Shown in pieces: positions 47,343-56,368 of a stretch of 64,000 nucleotides of DNA. Position 1 is the stretch's first letter, and every line of letters starts with the position of its first letter. The stretch is from Flavisolibacter longurius (GTDB lineage Bacteria > Bacteroidota > Bacteroidia > Chitinophagales > Chitinophagaceae), in contig JACJGO010000001.1 in NCBI GenBank assembly GCA_014163555.1, positions 124,001 through 188,000 of the forward strand, given 5' to 3'. The notes under the pieces are model-generated. The model worked only from the letters and a program-made list of their open reading frames with translations. It was not told where the DNA came from and did not search any database. The translations under genes were made by a program, and so were the position numbers.

Positions 47343-48929
47343 CTATTTCTTCATGAACTTTTCTGAGAATTGCTCACCATTGCTGGTATAGTGCATGATG
47401 TACATACCATTCGTCATAAAGCCTGCTGACAGCGTATTAAGGCCTTGTAGTAGGCGGCCTTTGGAAACCTGCCGGCCATTCATGTCGAAGATGGTATAAT
47501 CAAATGCAGCAGGACTGCTAACGGTGATGGTGCTGTTGATCAAATTGCCAACGAGGAAAGGTTTGCTGACGGCCTGGCCTCCACGCAGCACAGCCACATT
47601 GGAGTAGTGCGTCCGACCATTGTCGAACAACACCCGAACCCGGTAAAAATGCACAGCGGCTTTTGCTGGCAGTGCACTAAACGTACGGGCCGCAGCCGCC
47701 ACAGGGGACAGGGCTTCAAATACCCGTCCATCAGCAGAAGTTTCAAGGATTTGCTCCACTACAGTTTCATCGGCAACAATATCCCAGGCCAGGTTATGGC
47801 GGTTGTTGGCGGATGTTGCTTTCAGCTCCAGCTTGTGCACCGGCAACGCAATGGAAGTAATGTTAACATCCAGGGCATAAGAGCCCAGCATGGCATAATT
47901 GGGAGCATATTCGTTACCACGGCTCAACACCTGCAGGTAGTAGGTGCCGGCCTGTAAAGTTGTATCGATAGAAGCCCGCAAGGAATTCTCGGGGTTATAA
48001 GTAACCGTATCACCCTGGGCATTCACCAGTTCCATTTGCAGGTCGATATTGGCGCCAACATAGCCAGAAGACACGCTGTAAGGCAGGGCGTTCAACGAAA
48101 CTTTACCCGCAGATGTCAGATCGAAGCGGATAACATCCACATCATTCGGACGCTCGATCACACCATCCATGGAAAAACGGTTATTGATGAACGAAGCTTT
48201 GGTGGCTTCGGCAGGGGTATTCCTGTGATCATCAGTTCTGTAACCAAAACCATTGGCCGTACGGGTGATGATACCAAGATCATCCTGCATATACGAACAA
48301 CCGAAAGGGTTGCTACCGTAGTGCCAAAGGGTCAGGTTGCGGTAATAACCGACGCCCATGATCGGCGCCCAGCCAATTTCACCGCTACCGGTTCCGCTGT
48401 TGTATTCCGATGTTTTGTTACAGATATTATCATAGGCTGACTGGTGGTTCAGTCCCAGTGTATGACCGGCTTCATGCGAGGCAGCTTCGGCAATATTCTT
48501 TACGTTGTAATTAAGCAGGGCTGTGAACACAAAACAAGGTGTATTGTCACCCCAGGTAAAGGAATTGTTGAAAGCTACACCTCCGGCGCTGCCGTACCAA
48601 GAAGAAGAAGTGGTCAGTACAACACGGATCCGGCGTTTGGCCGGTGCCGCTGCATATACAGTAGAATCGGTTGTAACATTGATATTGAACGGACGGTAGT
48701 CTTCAGCTACACGGTTAAACACTTCGGTAAGTTGAGTGCTGTTAAGGTTAGAACCGTTACACACCACAGGACCATCATAGTTCCAGCTGGTGCCTTGAAC
48801 AATATGACCGTCAAAATCGAGAAATATTACTGCAGCGGCAGAAGGATAACTGTTGTAGTTGGGAACCTGGGCGGATACATTTGTTGCCAGGAAAAAAACA
48901 GTGCAAAGGAGTACGTAAAAAGTTTTCAT
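47343..48929 (-). CDS. Secreted reprolysin-like zinc metalloprotease with T9SS sorting domain
   Basis: 528 residues. Signal peptide (cut at VSA|QVPN), then a catalytic domain: FLDFDGHIVQGTSWN near 34, and the metzincin zinc site HEAGHTLGLNH near 150-160 (three His ligands, catalytic Glu). A beta-sandwich at about 250-350 resembles bacterial pre-peptidase C-terminal domains (DVDVIRFDLTSAGKVSLNA, LQAGTYYLQVLSRG), then a fibronectin-like part and a C-terminal sorting domain (DYTIFDMNGRQVSKGRLLQG, NGMYIMHYTSNGEQFSEKFMKK). The C-terminus directs export by the type IX system and cell-surface attachment or release. No Met-turn was pinpointed. Preceded by a small secreted gene in the same operon. Confidence 0.88.
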   Translation of the reverse strand: MKTFYVLLCTVFFLATNVSAQVPNYNSYPSAAAVIFLDFDGHIVQGTSWNYDGPVVCNGSNLNSTQLTEVFNRVAEDYRPFNINVTTDSTVYAAAPAKRRIRVVLTTSSSWYGSAGGVAFNNSFTWGDNTPCFVFTALLNYNVKNIAEAASHEAGHTLGLNHQSAYDNICNKTSEYNSGTGSGEIGWAPIMGVGYYRNLTLWHYGSNPFGCSYMQDDLGIITRTANGFGYRTDDHRNTPAEATKASFINNRFSMDGVIERPNDVDVIRFDLTSAGKVSLNALPYSVSSGYVGANIDLQMELVNAQGDTVTYNPENSLRASIDTTLQAGTYYLQVLSRGNEYAPNYAMLGSYALDVNITSIALPVHKLELKATSANNRHNLAWDIVADETVVEQILETSADGRVFEALSPVAAAARTFSALPAKAAVHFYRVRVLFDNGRTHYSNVAVLRGGQAVSKPFLVGNLINSTITVSSPAAFDYTIFDMNGRQVSKGRLLQGLNTLSAGFMTNGMYIMHYTSNGEQFSEKFMKK

Positions 48930-50067: not shown

Positions 50068-51204
50068 TTAAAATGATTTTCCATGGGTTAGGCGAATCAC
50101 GGGCCGGGCAAGGAAAGGAGCTATGCGAAAAAGATTGACAAAACCATTGCTATGGCTGTTGCTGCCGAAAAAAGCCTGCAAGGCCCTTCCGGTGCGCAAA
50201 CGAAACGCAAATTGGGACCTCCACTCCTGCTGATATTGCTTTTCCATTTCCTGTTGCGAAAGGTTACCAGCCAGAAAAGCATCACCCAGTTCAGCCGCTA
50301 TTTTGGCGGTATGCAGGGCAATGCTCATGCCGTTGCCACAAAGCGGTGTGATCATGCCCGCCGTGTCACCCAGCATCAACAAGCCGTTTTCAACGGTTGA
50401 TTTTTGCGCAAAACTTATTTGCGAAATGGTAACAGGAAATTCCGCCATCACTTCACTACCGGTGAAAAGTTTACGCAGGTATTGATTTTTAAAAAGAATT
50501 TCCTTCTGCATACGATCAATGCTGTTGCCACTGCGATGCAAGTTTTCGGCACGGGTCATATAGCACAGGCAATACTTCTCACCCTCGATTTTTGAAATGC
50601 CGCAATACCCGTTTTCAAAATTGTGCAACCCAATAATGTTTGGCGGCCAGTCGGCTTTTACATGGTACTTCACTCCCACATAATTGTTCAGCCGCTTGTT
50701 TTGCTGCTGCAAAAAAGGTCGTTTCCATTTTACATCCAGATTGCCGCGTTTTCCATACGCCGCCAGGCAAAGTCTTGCGTTGATGGATTGTTGGGTGAAA
50801 TGAACCATACCCCTCTCTCCACTCACAATATCATCTACCCTTGTCTTTTCCATCAGGTGCACACCACTGGCTTTTGCTATCTGCGCCAATGCGTGGTCAA
50901 GTGTATACCGGCTGATGCCAAAGCCTCCAAAGGGCAAGGGCGTGCTGAACAAGCGGCCATTGGGCGCGGTTAACTGCAAAGTATCGATGCGTGGCAGGTT
51001 CCACTCTTCTAATGGCAACCCAAGCGAAAGCAAAAAATTCCAGCTTTCCATGCTGATATATTCACCGCAAACCTTGTGAAAGGGATAAGCTTCTTTTTCG
51101 AAAAGAACCACGCTGTGTCCCCTTTTTCGCAGGCAGATAGCACTGGCCAGTCCGGCCAGGCCACCACCAACAATGGCAACATCATATTGCGGCTGCATGT
51201 GCAT
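50068..51204 (-). CDS. FAD-dependent monooxygenase of the type III PKS operon
   Basis: 378 residues. Dinucleotide fold VAIVGGGLAGLASAICLRKRGHSVVLFEKE at about 9-38, a conserved FHKVCGEYIS near 43-52, and a GD motif MLGDTAGMITPLCGNGMSIAL near 275-295 of the p-hydroxybenzoate hydroxylase/geranylgeranyl reductase superfamily. In the srsABC operon of Streptomyces the third gene is a flavoprotein that hydroxylates a methylated alkylresorcinol to a quinone, and gene order and neighbours here match that role. Its start overlaps the methyltransferase end by 23 bases, so it is translationally coupled. Confidence 0.82.
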   Translation of the reverse strand: MHMQPQYDVAIVGGGLAGLASAICLRKRGHSVVLFEKEAYPFHKVCGEYISMESWNFLLSLGLPLEEWNLPRIDTLQLTAPNGRLFSTPLPFGGFGISRYTLDHALAQIAKASGVHLMEKTRVDDIVSGERGMVHFTQQSINARLCLAAYGKRGNLDVKWKRPFLQQQNKRLNNYVGVKYHVKADWPPNIIGLHNFENGYCGISKIEGEKYCLCYMTRAENLHRSGNSIDRMQKEILFKNQYLRKLFTGSEVMAEFPVTISQISFAQKSTVENGLLMLGDTAGMITPLCGNGMSIALHTAKIAAELGDAFLAGNLSQQEMEKQYQQEWRSQFAFRLRTGRALQAFFGSNSHSNGFVNLFRIAPFLARPVIRLTHGKSF

Positions 51205-51907
51205 GTGTACGACAAATAATTAACCAGCGAAAGGCCCATTGCCAGGTGCAGCGTGCATCCCTGATTCCTGCTTTTTGAAATAGTGCCATCCAGTCCCGCT
51301 TTTGGAAACCACGAAGCACAGACAGCGGTGCATCATTGCGTACTAAATAACTTTTCGAAAAAACAGCCGTTAAAAGTTTGATCGAATAATAGGCAAGCGG
51401 GTGCCGGTGAAGATCATTAATGAAAAAACCGGTGGCGCTGTTTTCCTGCATCCACTGTAATTGCTCCACCAATTCTTCATCTGTAAAATGGTGACAAAAA
51501 AGGGAAGAGAATACAATATCCGGTTTTACCGGAAAGGCGGCATCCTTGTAATCAGACTGGATAAACGTTATGCTCTCATTTTTTTTCTGCGCCTTTGCAT
51601 ATGCAATGCATTCAGGATTTATATCAATTCCGGTAAGCATCACCGGTAGCTTGTTCTTTTTTGCCCAAACGTTTATGGCTTTCAGGTTATCGCCGCCCCC
51701 ACAGCCAATTTCTACAATATGAATGGGCCGGTGATTGAGTGTTGAACTTTTCAGCAGAAGTTTTACGCCTTTCTGTGTGATGCGGTGGCCACCCAAACGG
51801 CGATTAATAACATCCAGTTCATACATATTACGAGCAATGTCCGGGAACGGAATAACATCCCGGTCGAGCAGTTCTTTTTGATAGGAGCGTTTTGTAAAGA
51901 ATGCCAT
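51182..51907 (-). CDS. SAM-dependent methyltransferase of the type III PKS operon
   Basis: 241 residues from the ATG at 51905-51907 (MAFFTKRSYQKELLDRD); earlier ATGs at 51937 and after add ten unpatterned residues. Class I fold: motif I VEIGCGGGDNL near 66, acidic end of beta 2 GIDINPECIAYA near 91, motif II-like PDIVFSSLFCHHFTDEEL near 123, and FFINDLHRHPLAYYSIKLL near 153. Probably O- or C-methylates the phenolic lipid made by the adjacent polyketide synthase. Starts 101 bases after the synthase stop and overlaps the next gene. Confidence 0.85.
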   Translation of the reverse strand: MAFFTKRSYQKELLDRDVIPFPDIARNMYELDVINRRLGGHRITQKGVKLLLKSSTLNHRPIHIVEIGCGGGDNLKAINVWAKKNKLPVMLTGIDINPECIAYAKAQKKNESITFIQSDYKDAAFPVKPDIVFSSLFCHHFTDEELVEQLQWMQENSATGFFINDLHRHPLAYYSIKLLTAVFSKSYLVRNDAPLSVLRGFQKRDWMALFQKAGIRDARCTWQWAFRWLIICRTHAHAAAI

Positions 51908-52008
51908 TGTTTCCATTGCCATTGTGTAAGGAGGCATCTCCAGTGCGTTTCCAAAAGATACAGCACATTCTTGCTTTTTGCGATTGAATTTGTCAACGCC
52001 AGGACAAA

Positions 52009-53088
52009 CTATGCATGGGCCGTAAACGTTTCCACGGTCAGGCCGGGGCCAAAAGCGGCTCCAAACAGTTTCGGAACTTTTTTCTGCTGCAGCATTCGTT
52101 TCAGCACAAACAAAACAGTAGCGGAAGAAAGGTTGCCGGTTTCCCGAAGCACAGCATGGGAGTCCTGGAGTTGGCCATCGGTAAATGCCATTGTTTTTTC
52201 AATGGCCTGCAACAGGCGCTTTCCTCCGGGATGAATGCACCAGTGTGAAACAGCAGCCGCGTCCAAACCTTCTTTTGCCAAAGCCCTCGATACTATGGCG
52301 CTAAAATCTTCTTCTATGAGGTCAGGAATATAGCCGCTCAGGGTCATTAAAAACCCCGATGACGACAGTTCCCAGGCCATATCGCGTTTTCCTTTCGGGT
52401 TGATCTCGCTGTAAAAATGATCGATAGTCAATCCGGACGGTGTGGCATCAGCATGCATCACAAGGGCGGCTGCGGCACCATCGCCAAACAAGAGTGAGGA
52501 GGCCATGTTATCCATGGTTGCCTCTCGCTGAAAATGAAGGGTACACAACTCCGTGCAAACCATCAGCACCTGCGCGGTTTTGTCGCTGCGGCAGATGGCA
52601 TCCGCAATCTTTAATGCATGAATGGCGGCATAGCAACCCATAAAATTCACCGATGTGCGAAAGATCGTTTTTTCAAAATCCATCAGTTCCATCACCTGCA
52701 GATCAAGTCCAGGAGCACTCATGCCGGTACAGCTCACGGTAATAAGATGAGTGACACGGTTTTTCTGGTGCGTATGATTCAGGCAATCACGAATGGCATC
52801 CACGGAAAGTAATGGCGCCTGTTTTTGAAAAACAGCCATGCGTTGCTCCAACGTAGGAAACGGTTCGAGATTTTCGGAAGGTGCATAGAACTTCCAGTCA
52901 GAAGGGGGCTTTGTATAATCCGGCAACACGGAATAACGTTGATCAATACCTGATTTTGCGTACAGAAATCGAAGCTTCCTGGCTTCTACCTCCGGCAGTG
53001 CATACACCTGTTGCATAAACGGCAGTATCTCCATTTGAGAATGGCAATAAGGCGGTAATGCTGTGCCAATTGAAACAATCTTACTCAC
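52009..53088 (-). CDS. Type III polyketide synthase (chalcone/alkylresorcinol synthase family)
   Basis: 359 residues from a GTG at 53086-53088, giving the family-typical start VSKIVSIGTALPPYCHSQ. The GTG shares the stop of the UbiA gene in a GTGA overlap, a classic coupling signal, so this is preferred over an ATG at 53130 inside that gene. Catalytic triad visible: Cys in TVSCTGMSAPGLD (near 131), His in WCIHPGGKRLL (near 277), and Asn in ETGNLSSATVLFVL (near 310). GFGPGLTVE-type end reads GAAFGPGLTVE. Such enzymes extend a fatty acyl starter with malonyl-CoA to alkylresorcinols or alkylpyrones. Chain length and product are not predictable by eye. Confidence 0.93.
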   Translation of the reverse strand: MSKIVSIGTALPPYCHSQMEILPFMQQVYALPEVEARKLRFLYAKSGIDQRYSVLPDYTKPPSDWKFYAPSENLEPFPTLEQRMAVFQKQAPLLSVDAIRDCLNHTHQKNRVTHLITVSCTGMSAPGLDLQVMELMDFEKTIFRTSVNFMGCYAAIHALKIADAICRSDKTAQVLMVCTELCTLHFQREATMDNMASSLLFGDGAAAALVMHADATPSGLTIDHFYSEINPKGKRDMAWELSSSGFLMTLSGYIPDLIEEDFSAIVSRALAKEGLDAAAVSHWCIHPGGKRLLQAIEKTMAFTDGQLQDSHAVLRETGNLSSATVLFVLKRMLQQKKVPKLFGAAFGPGLTVETFTAHA

Positions 53089-53939
53089 GTATTGTGTATG
53101 ATAAGCGTAATAAAAAAAGCGATGGTGCAAAGCGTGGACAGGACATTCATCCGCAAACTGTTCCGGAAATCGGCAGCCGCTTCATCCTTCCATACCCTGA
53201 CCATCCAATACAGAAAAAACAATACCACGGGCAGGAGGTACAACAAGTAGAGGTTGAAAAAGTTGAGGCGTTCCTGCTGGCGAAAAAGCAGGTACATACC
53301 GGCAGTAGCCAAAAGAAACAGCGCCATACTGAACAGGAAGGTACCCCGTTTGCCCAACCGATAGCTTAGTGTTATCACCCCATCTTTCCGGTCTTCTTCG
53401 TGCTGGTAGATCTGTGTCAGCGGATACAGGGCGCCAATCAGCAGGCTCGATAGGCACAGCGGGATCAGGGGCGGAACCTGTGACGGAACGGTAACAGCAC
53501 TATAGGTAAGATAAAATACAAGGGCTCCCTGGAAAATAAAGACGGTAAGAAAGCCCAGTACAGGATATTTTTTTAACCGTATGCCCCGGTAACTGTAGGC
53601 TCGGGAAGCCAGAATGTACAATAGAATACCCAGCGCAAACAGCGGTGAAAAAAGGAAGGACAATGCTACAGCCACCACATCCATGATCACCGTTGTAACA
53701 AACAACTGGCGGGTGGGCTGTAAGGGCGATCGCAATCCTCCGATGGGGGTTTCATCCCTGTCCATAAAGGAATTGTAGCCATTGCTGGCCGGGTAAACCA
53801 AAAGATGCAGGATCAGGAAGACCGCAACGGCCCGGCCTGTATCTATGGCAGGCGCCTGGCTCAGGGCAAACAGGTAAACCGGCAGGAGAAACAATGAAAA
53901 ATGAAAACGCAGGAGTTGTATGGTGGAGCGGTGGAGCAT
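53085..53939 (-). CDS. UbiA-family prenyltransferase, first gene of the PKS operon
   Basis: 284 residues with about eight membrane helices. The first Asp-rich motif reads NSFMDRDETPIGG near 53-65 (in place of NDxxDxxxD), and the second reads HEEDRKDGVITL near 182-193, matching DxxxDrxxGvxTL. UbiA enzymes attach isoprenoid chains to aromatic acceptors in the membrane. Its position overlapping the type III synthase start (4 bases) makes an aromatic product of that synthase the natural acceptor, as inference. A decarboxylated or unusual first motif means activity should be confirmed. It is divergent from the FAD oxidoreductase gene at 54033. Confidence 0.85.
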   Translation of the reverse strand: MLHRSTIQLLRFHFSLFLLPVYLFALSQAPAIDTGRAVAVFLILHLLVYPASNGYNSFMDRDETPIGGLRSPLQPTRQLFVTTVIMDVVAVALSFLFSPLFALGILLYILASRAYSYRGIRLKKYPVLGFLTVFIFQGALVFYLTYSAVTVPSQVPPLIPLCLSSLLIGALYPLTQIYQHEEDRKDGVITLSYRLGKRGTFLFSMALFLLATAGMYLLFRQQERLNFFNLYLLYLLPVVLFFLYWMVRVWKDEAAADFRNSLRMNVLSTLCTIAFFITLIIHNT

Positions 53940-54032: not shown

Positions 54033-55172
54033 ATGGCTTACCAGTATTCAATTTGGGAAAAAGAAACCTTCTTTTCCCACCAGGATGTGATCATTGTGGG
54101 CAGCGGCTTTACCGGTTTGTGGTCGGCACTCTTTCTAAAAAAAAGACGGCCTAATCTAAAGATTACGATCGTGGAAAGAGGGTTGATTCCTACCGGCGCC
54201 AGTACCCGCAATGCCGGCTTTGCCTGCTTTGGAAGCCCGAGTGAACTGGTATGGGATGCGCAGGCCATGGGCGTGGAAAAAATGCTGGAAGTGGCCGAAA
54301 TGCGTTTCAAAGGCCTTCGACGCATTCAAAAATATTTTCGTAAGGAAGCCATCGATTTCAGTCTTTGCGGCGGTTACGAATTGTATGAAGAAGGAAAAAT
54401 AACAACGGAGAAACTGGAAGACAATATTTCCTACCTGAATACCATTTTAAAACCCATTACCGACAGCAAAAAAACCTATCGTCTTGCCGACAAAAAGATC
54501 AGCCGGTTTGGCTTTGGCCACACGGCGCACCTTGTCGAAAACCGGCTGGAAGGATACCTGCATTCCGGCAAACTGCTTCAGGCGCTCCTGCAAAAAGTTC
54601 AGGGCATGGGGGTAACGGTTCTCACCAACGTTGAGATCAACTATCTGCAGCCCTACAACGACAGCGTTTCCATTGAAACCGCCAATGGCTTTCTCCTGAC
54701 CGGTGACAAGGTTTTGCTTTGTACCAATGCTTTTACCAAACAATTACTTCCTAAAGAAGATATTGTACCGGCCAGGGGGCAGGTGATCCTCACCTCTCCT
54801 ATCCGCGATCTTCCTTTCAACGGAACCTTTCATGCCGACGAGGGCTTTTATTATTTCCGCAACCTTGGCAAGCGGGTTCTATTGGGCGGAGCCAGGAACA
54901 AAGCATTTGAAGAAGAAAGGACAACTTCGCTGGAAACCTCCGAAACCATTCAGCAGGAACTGGAACGTTATCTTGCCGACGTTGTTCTTCCCAGGTTTCA
55001 AAACCAGTACACCATCGAACACCGCTGGGCAGGCATCATGGCATTTGGAAAAGAGAAAAGCCCGATTGTAAAGCAGCTTTCTCCCACCCTTTTCTGCGCC
55101 GTTCGCATGAGTGGCATGGGGGTAGCCCTGGCGCCGGTAGTGGCCGAAAACGTAGCCGGTTTAATGGATTAA
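54033..55172 (+). CDS. FAD-dependent oxidoreductase (D-amino-acid oxidase/DadA family)
   Basis: 379 residues from the ATG at 54033, fixed by the -7 element just upstream; the frame is open from 53901 but that part overlaps the divergent UbiA gene. FAD-binding DVIIVGSGFTGLWSALFLKKR at about 18-38, ERGLIPTGASTRNAGFACFG near 48-67, and C-terminal GIMAFGKEKSPIVKQL and RMSGMGVALAPVVAENVAG, all DAO-family features. The usual reaction is oxidation of amines or amino acids with FAD. Substrate unknown. It ends in a four-base TTAA overlap with the convergent M43 protease gene. Confidence 0.87.
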   Translation: MAYQYSIWEKETFFSHQDVIIVGSGFTGLWSALFLKKRRPNLKITIVERGLIPTGASTRNAGFACFGSPSELVWDAQAMGVEKMLEVAEMRFKGLRRIQKYFRKEAIDFSLCGGYELYEEGKITTEKLEDNISYLNTILKPITDSKKTYRLADKKISRFGFGHTAHLVENRLEGYLHSGKLLQALLQKVQGMGVTVLTNVEINYLQPYNDSVSIETANGFLLTGDKVLLCTNAFTKQLLPKEDIVPARGQVILTSPIRDLPFNGTFHADEGFYYFRNLGKRVLLGGARNKAFEEERTTSLETSETIQQELERYLADVVLPRFQNQYTIEHRWAGIMAFGKEKSPIVKQLSPTLFCAVRMSGMGVALAPVVAENVAGLMD

Positions 55173-56368
55173 AGCTTGATGAATTTCTGCAGAAAATTTT
55201 CACCCCGGAGAAAATAAAGGCCGGGCTTCAGGGCTGCAATGTTGATGGTATGCTGGGTCGATCGCACCACAACGGCTTGCTGTAATTGCCCGTTATGGTT
55301 GTAGATGTTGATTGTTTTTCCAACCAGTGCTTCGGTTACCACAACCGTTACTTTATCAGAAGCCGGGTTGGGATACAACGAAGTTTCAGGCAGCGTAACC
55401 GGGGATTCCTGCAGGTAAGGTTCCTGCAGCCCGCGGCTGTCTAAAAGCGAAGCCCGTGGACCGCCTTCTGCAAAAGCAGCCCGCATCCGCTGGCGCTGTC
55501 CCAGGGTAAACAGGTTCATGCAATCATCGTTGGTGTAATCCATGTAGTTCATATACATGTCACCCTGTTCGCCATTTTCGCAGGAGGTGCGGAAACCAGT
55601 TGGGCATCCTTTGGTAAAATACCCCTGGCGTGGGGTATCATCCACGGCATCATCGCCACATTGTGTATCACCCCAGATGTGTTTCAGTCCCAGCCAGTGC
55701 CCTACTTCGTGCACGGCCGTTCTTCCCCGGTGAAAGGGCGCCACCGTATTGAACGTACCAAAAGCGGCGGCGTTGATCACAATGCCATCGGTAGCTGCAG
55801 CGCTACCGGGAACGGTAGCATATCCGCTGCTGCCAATAATATTGCCGATCCAGATGTTGAGGTATTGTTTGCTGTTCCAGCCATCCAATCCGCCCTGGGC
55901 CGAAAGTTTTATTTTATCATCCGGCGCCCATCCTCCACGTGAGGTGTATTTGCGGTTGATACCCGTTGTGGCCCGTCCACGGGGATCCGACTTGGCCAAG
56001 TAAAATTCGATCATTACATCAGCCGCCAGGTGACGGAACCGTACTGGTGTATTTGCGGTATCGCCATTGCGTTTGCGAAAATCACGGTTCAGGGCATCCA
56101 CACCGCTTTGGATCTGTGCATCGGAAATATTTTGCGAAGGCTGATTATACAGAACATGAACGACAACCGGGATGCGGATGATCTCATCTTCGGCAACAGT
56201 GCTTAAAGAAGATTTATTTTTTTGAAAGGATTCTGCTTTGCGGATATTTTGGGCTTCTGGTGTACCGGCAATATTGTTTGATTCCAGGTAGGCCGACGTA
56301 AGGCAACGCTCCTGCGCACGGGCGAGAAAGGCGATAGAAAAGAAAACAATAAAGAATAGCGTCCTCAT
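55169..56368 (-). CDS. Secreted M43-type (pappalysin/cytophagalysin) zinc metalloprotease with T9SS sorting domain
   Basis: 399 residues. Signal peptide (cut at ARA|QERC), a short propeptide region to about 60, catalytic domain with RIPVVVHVLYN near 65, zinc site AVHEVGHWLGLKHIWGD near 220-235 (His-Glu-His-His pattern), the family's CGDDAVDDTP segment near 240 and the Met-turn region MYMNYMDYTNDDCMNLFT near 275. The last 75 residues form a Por-type sorting domain (LYPNPASDKVTVVV, NIYNHNGQLQQAVVV, LKPGLYFLRG). Secreted through the type IX system as an extracellular protease. Confidence 0.92.
   Translation of the reverse strand: MRTLFFIVFFSIAFLARAQERCLTSAYLESNNIAGTPEAQNIRKAESFQKNKSSLSTVAEDEIIRIPVVVHVLYNQPSQNISDAQIQSGVDALNRDFRKRNGDTANTPVRFRHLAADVMIEFYLAKSDPRGRATTGINRKYTSRGGWAPDDKIKLSAQGGLDGWNSKQYLNIWIGNIIGSSGYATVPGSAAATDGIVINAAAFGTFNTVAPFHRGRTAVHEVGHWLGLKHIWGDTQCGDDAVDDTPRQGYFTKGCPTGFRTSCENGEQGDMYMNYMDYTNDDCMNLFTLGQRQRMRAAFAEGGPRASLLDSRGLQEPYLQESPVTLPETSLYPNPASDKVTVVVTEALVGKTINIYNHNGQLQQAVVVRSTQHTINIAALKPGLYFLRGENFLQKFIKL

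Follow-up and report, generated by a model that had tools for sequence, protein, structure and literature searches.

A conserved four-gene operon in Bacteroidota that couples a UbiA-superfamily protein with non-canonical motifs to a type III polyketide synthase

We analysed a 64,000-nucleotide stretch of the Flavisolibacter longurius genome (Bacteroidota, Chitinophagaceae; assembly GCA_014163555.1, contig JACJGO010000001.1, positions 124,001 to 188,000 of the forward strand), referred to below as the window. The host genome comprises 5.66 Mb in 58 contigs. Four genes on the minus strand of the window encode, in this order, an integral membrane protein of the UbiA superfamily, a type III polyketide synthase (PKS), a methyltransferase dependent on S-adenosylmethionine (SAM) and an oxidoreductase dependent on flavin adenine dinucleotide (FAD). 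They form one conserved unit, an operon, whose parts are as follows.

53085-53939, minus strand: UbiA-superfamily integral membrane protein, first gene (284 amino acids, ATG start; PF01040), a candidate prenyltransferase
53085-53088, minus strand: GTGA stop/start overlap of the UbiA and PKS genes, read from the sequence
52009-53088, minus strand: type III PKS, second gene (359 amino acids, GTG start; PF00195/PF02797)
51182-51937, minus strand: class I SAM-dependent methyltransferase, third gene (251 amino acids, ATG start; PF13649/PF08241)
50068-51204, minus strand: FAD-dependent oxidoreductase/monooxygenase-like protein, fourth gene (378 amino acids, ATG start; PF01266/PF01494)

An initial annotation of the window had described this gene order, the GTGA overlap, a 23-base overlap of the last two genes and an intact Cys-His-Asn triad in the PKS. 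All of these were recovered: open reading frames (ORFs) were found at the coordinates above, both overlaps are present in the sequence, and the triad is Cys152-His286-Asn319. The GTG start of the PKS was set by alignment with homologues; the ORF list places the start upstream, at a TTG (53130). The PKS and methyltransferase genes are separated by 71 bases, and the methyltransferase and FAD genes overlap at 51182-51204 by 23 bases, or by 17 with the second ATG as start.

Gene order and co-occurrence across Bacteroidota

The PKS protein was searched (E ≤ 1e-10) against 147 genomes of the same family and a 296-genome sample of the phylum, two samples that partly overlap. Matches were obtained in 75 family genomes and 135 phylum-sample genomes. 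Wide neighbourhoods were taken for 160 loci; they cover part of the 135 PKS-positive phylum-sample genomes and, in the family, 73 of 78 PKS places, the window included (the remainder being both places in G033 and one each in G030, G075 and G105). Genes for UbiA, methyltransferase and FAD protein all lay near the PKS gene and on its strand in 53 of the 73 family PKS loci. The full order UbiA-PKS-methyltransferase-FAD was found in 54 of the 71 loci (all kin) having UbiA together with a PKS of at least 430 bits. Among the other 17, UbiA lies on the opposite strand in 11, and one or both tailoring genes are absent in six, three of which (L063, L079, L183) end at a contig end. The UbiA and PKS genes run in the same direction in 61 of 73 loci. 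In 53 of these 61, no more than 11 bases lie between the final UbiA codon and the first PKS codon covered by the alignments.

We also scanned named genomes for UbiA and considered the best 80 of 575 relatives. The closest are from Chitinophagaceae, the top one being a Flaviaesturariibacter metagenome-assembled genome with 67 % identity. The PKS gene follows UbiA on the same strand with a gap of at most 139 bases in 79 of these 80 loci (at most 100 in 78), and all four genes are present in 70. The four genes were found in Niastella yeongjuensis DSM 17621, Segetibacter koreensis DSM 18137 and Cnuella takakiae RG1-1. The conservation of gene order rules out chance neighbours. A larger gene cluster was also rejected, as no further neighbour group occurs within 6.5 kb in more than 18 of 72 UbiA+PKS loci; the commonest extra group is antisense and placed over the PKS, and the CoA-binding gene downstream of the operon occurs in 17.

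To follow the UbiA subfamily beyond these loci, we used a profile of 60 sequences (A1) with a match threshold of E ≤ 1e-25, at which some members may be missed. The subfamily was detected in 65 of the 147 family genomes, namely in 65/75 with the PKS versus 0/72 without it. In the phylum sample, where up to eight UbiA candidates per genome were scored, which may likewise miss some members, it was detected in 47 of 296 genomes, again only in those with the PKS (47/135 versus 0/161). Fisher tests gave p = 1.9e-31 for the family and 4.9e-19 for the phylum sample; these values ignore the relatedness of the genomes and overstate the co-occurrence because related genomes are not independent. Every UbiA-carrying genome (65/65 and 47/47) thus also carries the PKS, so that the assumption of the initial annotation that UbiA belongs with the PKS, which a lack of co-occurrence in relatives would contradict, stands. 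The ten family genomes with a PKS and no UbiA subfamily member include eight that hold only a distant PKS (≤33 % identity), the others being G062 and G069. No subfamily match was obtained in the plasmid sequences searched.

Co-occurrence extends to genomes in which the two genes are apart. In 31 of the 47 phylum-sample genomes, all of which have the PKS, the UbiA gene is distant from the PKS gene or sits on a different contig. Five of these genomes (G215, G287, G298, G306, G330) hold a close version of UbiA. An unlinked, divergent UbiA (94 to 135 bits) occurs in 26 genomes, all from one Bacteroidota family (f23) and all with the PKS. At two loci (L329:4870-5655 and L331:6583-7389) the unlinked UbiA adjoins a different methyltransferase-like gene on the same strand (the Pfam match in L329 is below the cut-off). 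The picture of UbiA as the first gene, coupled to the PKS, therefore applies to the Chitinophagaceae but not to every other family; outside the Chitinophagaceae, UbiA is often divergent or unlinked.

Active-site motifs of the UbiA subfamily

The window UbiA matches PF01040 with 76.6 bits (cut-off 34.2; E 2.5e-21). Searched as a single sequence against PDB with phmmer, it gave only three matches, to gamma-aminobutyric acid (GABA) receptors, with E about 0.1. Profile A1 matched the structure of ApUbiA (4od4; E 7e-5), and the motif places were fixed by that alignment. The first motif reads N56xxxD60xD62 and replaces the canonical NxxxDxxxD. At position 64, the place of the third canonical Asp, the window has T; just six of the 73 subfamily members have D there, the residue in the others being G, E, T, S, A, K or L. 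In place of the canonical DxxxD, the second motif is Q176xxQ179xxxD183. The altered motifs are themselves conserved: N56, D60 and D62 are invariant (73/73 each), D183 is present in 72/73, and [TS]QxxQxxxD is found in 72/73 members, the remaining row having X (undetermined residues) at this place. A loose DxxxD pattern matches seven of the 73 rows, always away from the Q179 place. Of the 26 divergent f23 proteins, 14 were read (L314-L327), and all 14 keep the subfamily motifs, in the form YNSxxDKDEGPIGGL and SQxxQxxxD.

For comparison, 31 other UbiA-family loci from the window genome and 11 same-order genomes were inspected, an approximate control since a neighbouring ORF was taken for L348 at least and perhaps for L371. 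DxxxD was present in the second half of the protein in 21 of them, and the remaining 10 have N[QE]xxExxxD. We read the latter as haem O synthases; one of them, L002, adjoins a COX1-like gene. The window genome holds four further UbiA-family genes; on visual inspection, we would place two of them in quinone and haem O synthesis. One of its paralogues (L005, contig C57) keeps DxxxD, and the first motif NxxxDxxxD was not found in it.

Neither NxxxDxxxD nor DxxxD is present in the window UbiA. The protein thus scores above the Pfam cut-off, but its motifs set it apart from canonical UbiA prenyltransferases. The alteration may reflect a relaxed metal site or another reaction. The initial annotation had called the protein a prenyltransferase and had overlooked these non-canonical motifs.

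Polyketide synthase, tailoring enzymes and related clusters

The PKS matches the chalcone/stilbene synthase families PF00195 and PF02797. Residue counts were made over 131 of 161 homologue rows, those below 400 bits being dropped. C152, H286 and N319 are kept in 131, 131 and 130 of these rows (one gap at N), and W239 is present in all 131. In a PDB profile match to Pks18 and others, W239 aligns with Pks18 Leu266 and C182 with Pks18 Cys205, which is described as a residue of the acyl tunnel (PMC6274091). In ArsB, Trp281 is reported to decide resorcinol cyclisation (PMC6274091), and a Trp is reported to be kept at this position in SrsA, FtpA, PKS10 and PKS11 (PMC5916927). We equated W239 with ArsB Trp281 indirectly, through the alignments to Pks18 Leu266 and to a Streptomyces PKS (L337) together with the literature. 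W239 thus suggests a cyclisation of the resorcinol type.

In a midpoint-rooted tree of 63 PKS rows, the window PKS homologues form a set of 27 rows (support 98/93). UbiA is linked to the PKS in 21 of them, lies elsewhere in the genome in three and is absent in two, and one row is a PKS from a Psychrobacter plasmid. Another branch of the tree holds the Streptomyces PKS L337, the Bacillus and Sulfitobacter loci in which a PKS is paired with an isoprenylcysteine carboxyl methyltransferase (ICMT), and R. etli. The more distant Bacteroidota PKSs (30 rows) divide at the 239 position into 19 with W and 11 with Phe. The latter form a separate group (below 400 bits; L096, L150 and similar) that also has Pro at the C182 position and the gene order FAD-methyltransferase-PKS, and that perhaps makes a different product.

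The methyltransferase belongs to class I (PF13649, PF08241) and resembles PRK06202 (130.7 bits, below the model cut-off of 243). The best NCBIfam match of the FAD protein is TIGR02032 (geranylgeranyl reductase), with 104.8 bits against a cut-off of 158.8 that it does not reach. Residue counts for FAD homologues used 92 of 126 rows, those below 300 bits being dropped. The FAD subfamily also adjoins PKS and methyltransferase genes in G001, G006 and G101, genomes without the UbiA subfamily. On both counts, a role as prenyl (geranylgeranyl) reductase was rejected and the protein was read as a ring hydroxylase; its occurrence in genomes lacking the UbiA subfamily speaks for the latter. In family f23, the PKS is followed by an FAD gene of a different type (PF01494 in L213).

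We compared the operon with characterised clusters. It had been called srsABC-like, a likeness that holds for functions: Streptomyces srsABC likewise provides a type III PKS, a methyltransferase and a flavoprotein hydroxylase, and its PKS has the Trp (PMC5916927). It fails for the methyltransferase, which is of class I in the window, whereas an srsB gene is described as encoding an ICMT, in an operon 51-63 % identical to S. griseus srs (PMC6669644). The operon has no ICMT-type SrsB, and the srs-like Streptomyces locus L337 has a PF04140 gene between its PKS and FAD genes and a PKS on another tree branch. Closer in enzyme type are triads of PKS, class I methyltransferase and FAD genes on the same strand on Deinococcus and Sphingobium plasmids, and in Roseomonas (by annotation and profile). 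Psychrobacter has a PKS with methyltransferase and FAD genes, the two tailoring genes being convergent.

All four functions are combined in agqABCD, the closest precedent that has been characterised, which unites a type III PKS, a methyltransferase, a hydroxylase and a UbiA-type prenyltransferase in one cluster; this match is by functions only, and agqABCD is from an actinomycete whereas the window operon is from Bacteroidota. AgqB and AgqC are the methyltransferase and the monooxygenase. The genes agqA to agqD of Actinoplanes missouriensis are reported to yield alkyl-O-dihydrogeranyl-methoxyhydroquinones (PMC7692728), and AgqD (also given as 'AqgD'), described as resembling UbiA, to O-prenylate an alkyl-methoxyhydroquinone (PMC3227686).

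The arrangement of methyltransferase and oxidoreductase genes next to a type III PKS is also that of 58 planctomycete operons (PMC10896814). Six planctomycete PKSs are reported as tested in that study; four made C15 and/or C17 alkylresorcinols, including both from three-gene operons, and two from outside such operons gave no product (PMC10896814). The hierridin cluster hidABC of picocyanobacteria also combines a synthase for long-chain alkylresorcinols with an adjacent methyltransferase and oxidoreductase (PMC8086630). The window operon shows this arrangement, and both clusters are likened to it by function. They differ from it in that the accounts consulted mention no UbiA in the characterised clusters, although a hierridin-like cluster of Raphidiopsis mediterranea is reported with a prenyltransferase of unknown product (PMC8086630). 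The loseolamycin locus of Micromonospora endolithica (losA) has a UbiA gene, a methyltransferase and a type III PKS within four consecutive genes, and differs in that an acyl-CoA dehydrogenase gene lies between. Within Bacteroidota, Ubi-297/EboC of marine Flavobacteria (ebo cluster) is likewise a UbiA-like prenyltransferase in a conserved operon; that operon is eboA-E, and its motif is described as similar to the DXXDXXXD of E. coli UbiA.

Proposed pathway and alternative explanations

Taken together, gene content and conservation make it probable, in our estimate, that the operon makes a long-chain phenolic membrane lipid of the alkylresorcinol/hydroquinone type that is prenylated by UbiA. 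The PKS would extend a fatty acyl starter with three malonyl units and close the chain by C2-C7 aldol condensation to an alkylresorcinol. The FAD enzyme would then hydroxylate the ring, and the methyltransferase would methylate one oxygen, as is the case for hierridin and in the agq pathway, so that an alkyl-methoxyhydroquinone results. UbiA, a protein of the membrane in which the lipid would reside, would finally add an isoprenyl group. A phenolic oxygen, the site used by AgqD, is the most likely acceptor, and a ring carbon a possible one. The order of the steps, the donor and the attachment site are inferred.

Several observations weigh against this proposal. No UbiA subfamily member was found in 88 of the 135 PKS genomes of the phylum sample, and the PKS therefore often works without UbiA. 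W at the 239 column occurs in 10 of 13 reference PKSs, including that of the Bacillus PKS-ICMT locus, DpgA and the R. etli p42d enzyme; since it is thus also present in PKSs that do not form resorcinols, W239 is no proof of a resorcinol product. The R. etli enzyme RePKS is reviewed as a pyrone former (PMC6274091). With DxxxD gone at Q179xxxD183 and the third Asp of NxxxDxxxD mostly lost, diphosphate-dependent transfer by UbiA is not assured. As for the related clusters, Phytohabitans strains are reported to hold agqA-D orthologues, and the agq masses were not observed in culture (PMC7692728). The loseolamycin products are plain alkylresorcinols despite the UbiA gene of that locus, in a host where only losA was given a new promoter.

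Three alternatives were considered. In the first, which we consider doubtful, the pathway is of the hierridin type and UbiA acts on the same lipid without diphosphate-dependent prenyl transfer, through a different donor, cyclisation, or transport or binding. The near-invariance of [TS]QxxQxxxD (72/73 members and all 14 distant ones read), with D at the third Asp place in only 6/73, fits such a role, and motif invariance of this kind points to a kept, specific function of the subfamily. Against it, N56, D60, D62 and D183 are invariant or nearly so, and some of the acidic metal ligands are therefore retained. The first Asp of DxxxD is also missing from chlorophyll synthase, a UbiA enzyme that is active, and this position may thus be dispensable. 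Tentatively, the window UbiA could be a UbiA-fold enzyme working without DxxxD in a phenolic-lipid pathway that is widespread in Bacteroidota, either because prenyl transfer needs fewer Asp ligands than assumed or because the enzyme carries out some other reaction with an alkylresorcinol/hydroquinone lipid as substrate.

The second alternative is that UbiA prenylates or alters a different lipid, such as a quinone precursor, and is linked to the PKS by shared membrane regulation, not by a common product. The separation of the two genes in 31/47 phylum-sample genomes and the other methyltransferase-like gene beside UbiA in L329 and L331 would agree with this. We regard it as unlikely, as no sampled genome holds the UbiA subfamily without the PKS, and four other UbiA-family genes are present in the window genome, including the two placed above in quinone and haem O synthesis.

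Very unlikely, finally, is a PKS that makes alkylpyrones or resorcylic acids on which the tailoring enzymes act. In its favour, the Trp is shared with the R. etli p42d PKS, of the species whose RePKS was noted above as a pyrone former, and with the Bacillus PKS-ICMT locus L341, whose relatives are known for alkylpyrones; against it, the hydroxylase would fit a phenol ring better than a pyrone. Triads with a methyltransferase and an oxidoreductase are, moreover, tied to alkylresorcinols in Planctomycetota and picocyanobacteria (PMC10896814, PMC8086630).

The initial annotation had considered a prenylated lipid of this kind new to the phylum. An alkylresorcinol pathway with a UbiA prenyltransferase is already known from an actinomycete, in agqABCD (PMC7692728, PMC3227686), so that the combination of four functions as such is not new. 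Type III PKS clusters are on record in Bacteroidota, for example as antiSMASH calls in Marivirga (PMC11225308). For the four-gene operon with UbiA and PKS in Bacteroidota, we found no description in text searches of open-licence literature, which leaves most subscription journals outside. New are the coupling of UbiA to the PKS in Bacteroidota, which is widespread and, among the sampled genomes, exclusive, and the non-canonical UbiA motif.

If the preferred reading of a prenylated phenolic lipid is correct, 65 of 147 sampled family genomes, over two fifths, hold an uncharacterised pathway to a phenolic lipid, probably a prenylated one, and this pathway would share its set of functions with the agq pathway of an actinomycete. 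Loosely similar are plant routes, such as that to cannabinoids, in which a type III PKS works together with a UbiA prenyltransferase. Tied to the PKS in every sampled genome and divergent in its active site, the UbiA subfamily would lend itself well to testing which residues of the motifs UbiA enzymes require.

The genes around the operon were also inspected. A gene with a CoA_binding_2 domain (PF13380; 49659-50027, minus strand) lies 40 bases downstream of the FAD stop. It was found near the operon in 17 of the best 80 named loci, at a distance that varies among loci, and is thus probably outside the pathway. On either side of the operon, at 47343-48929 and 55169-56368 (minus strand), lie genes for putative secreted zinc metalloprotease-like proteins with, by eye, apparent C-terminal sorting domains.

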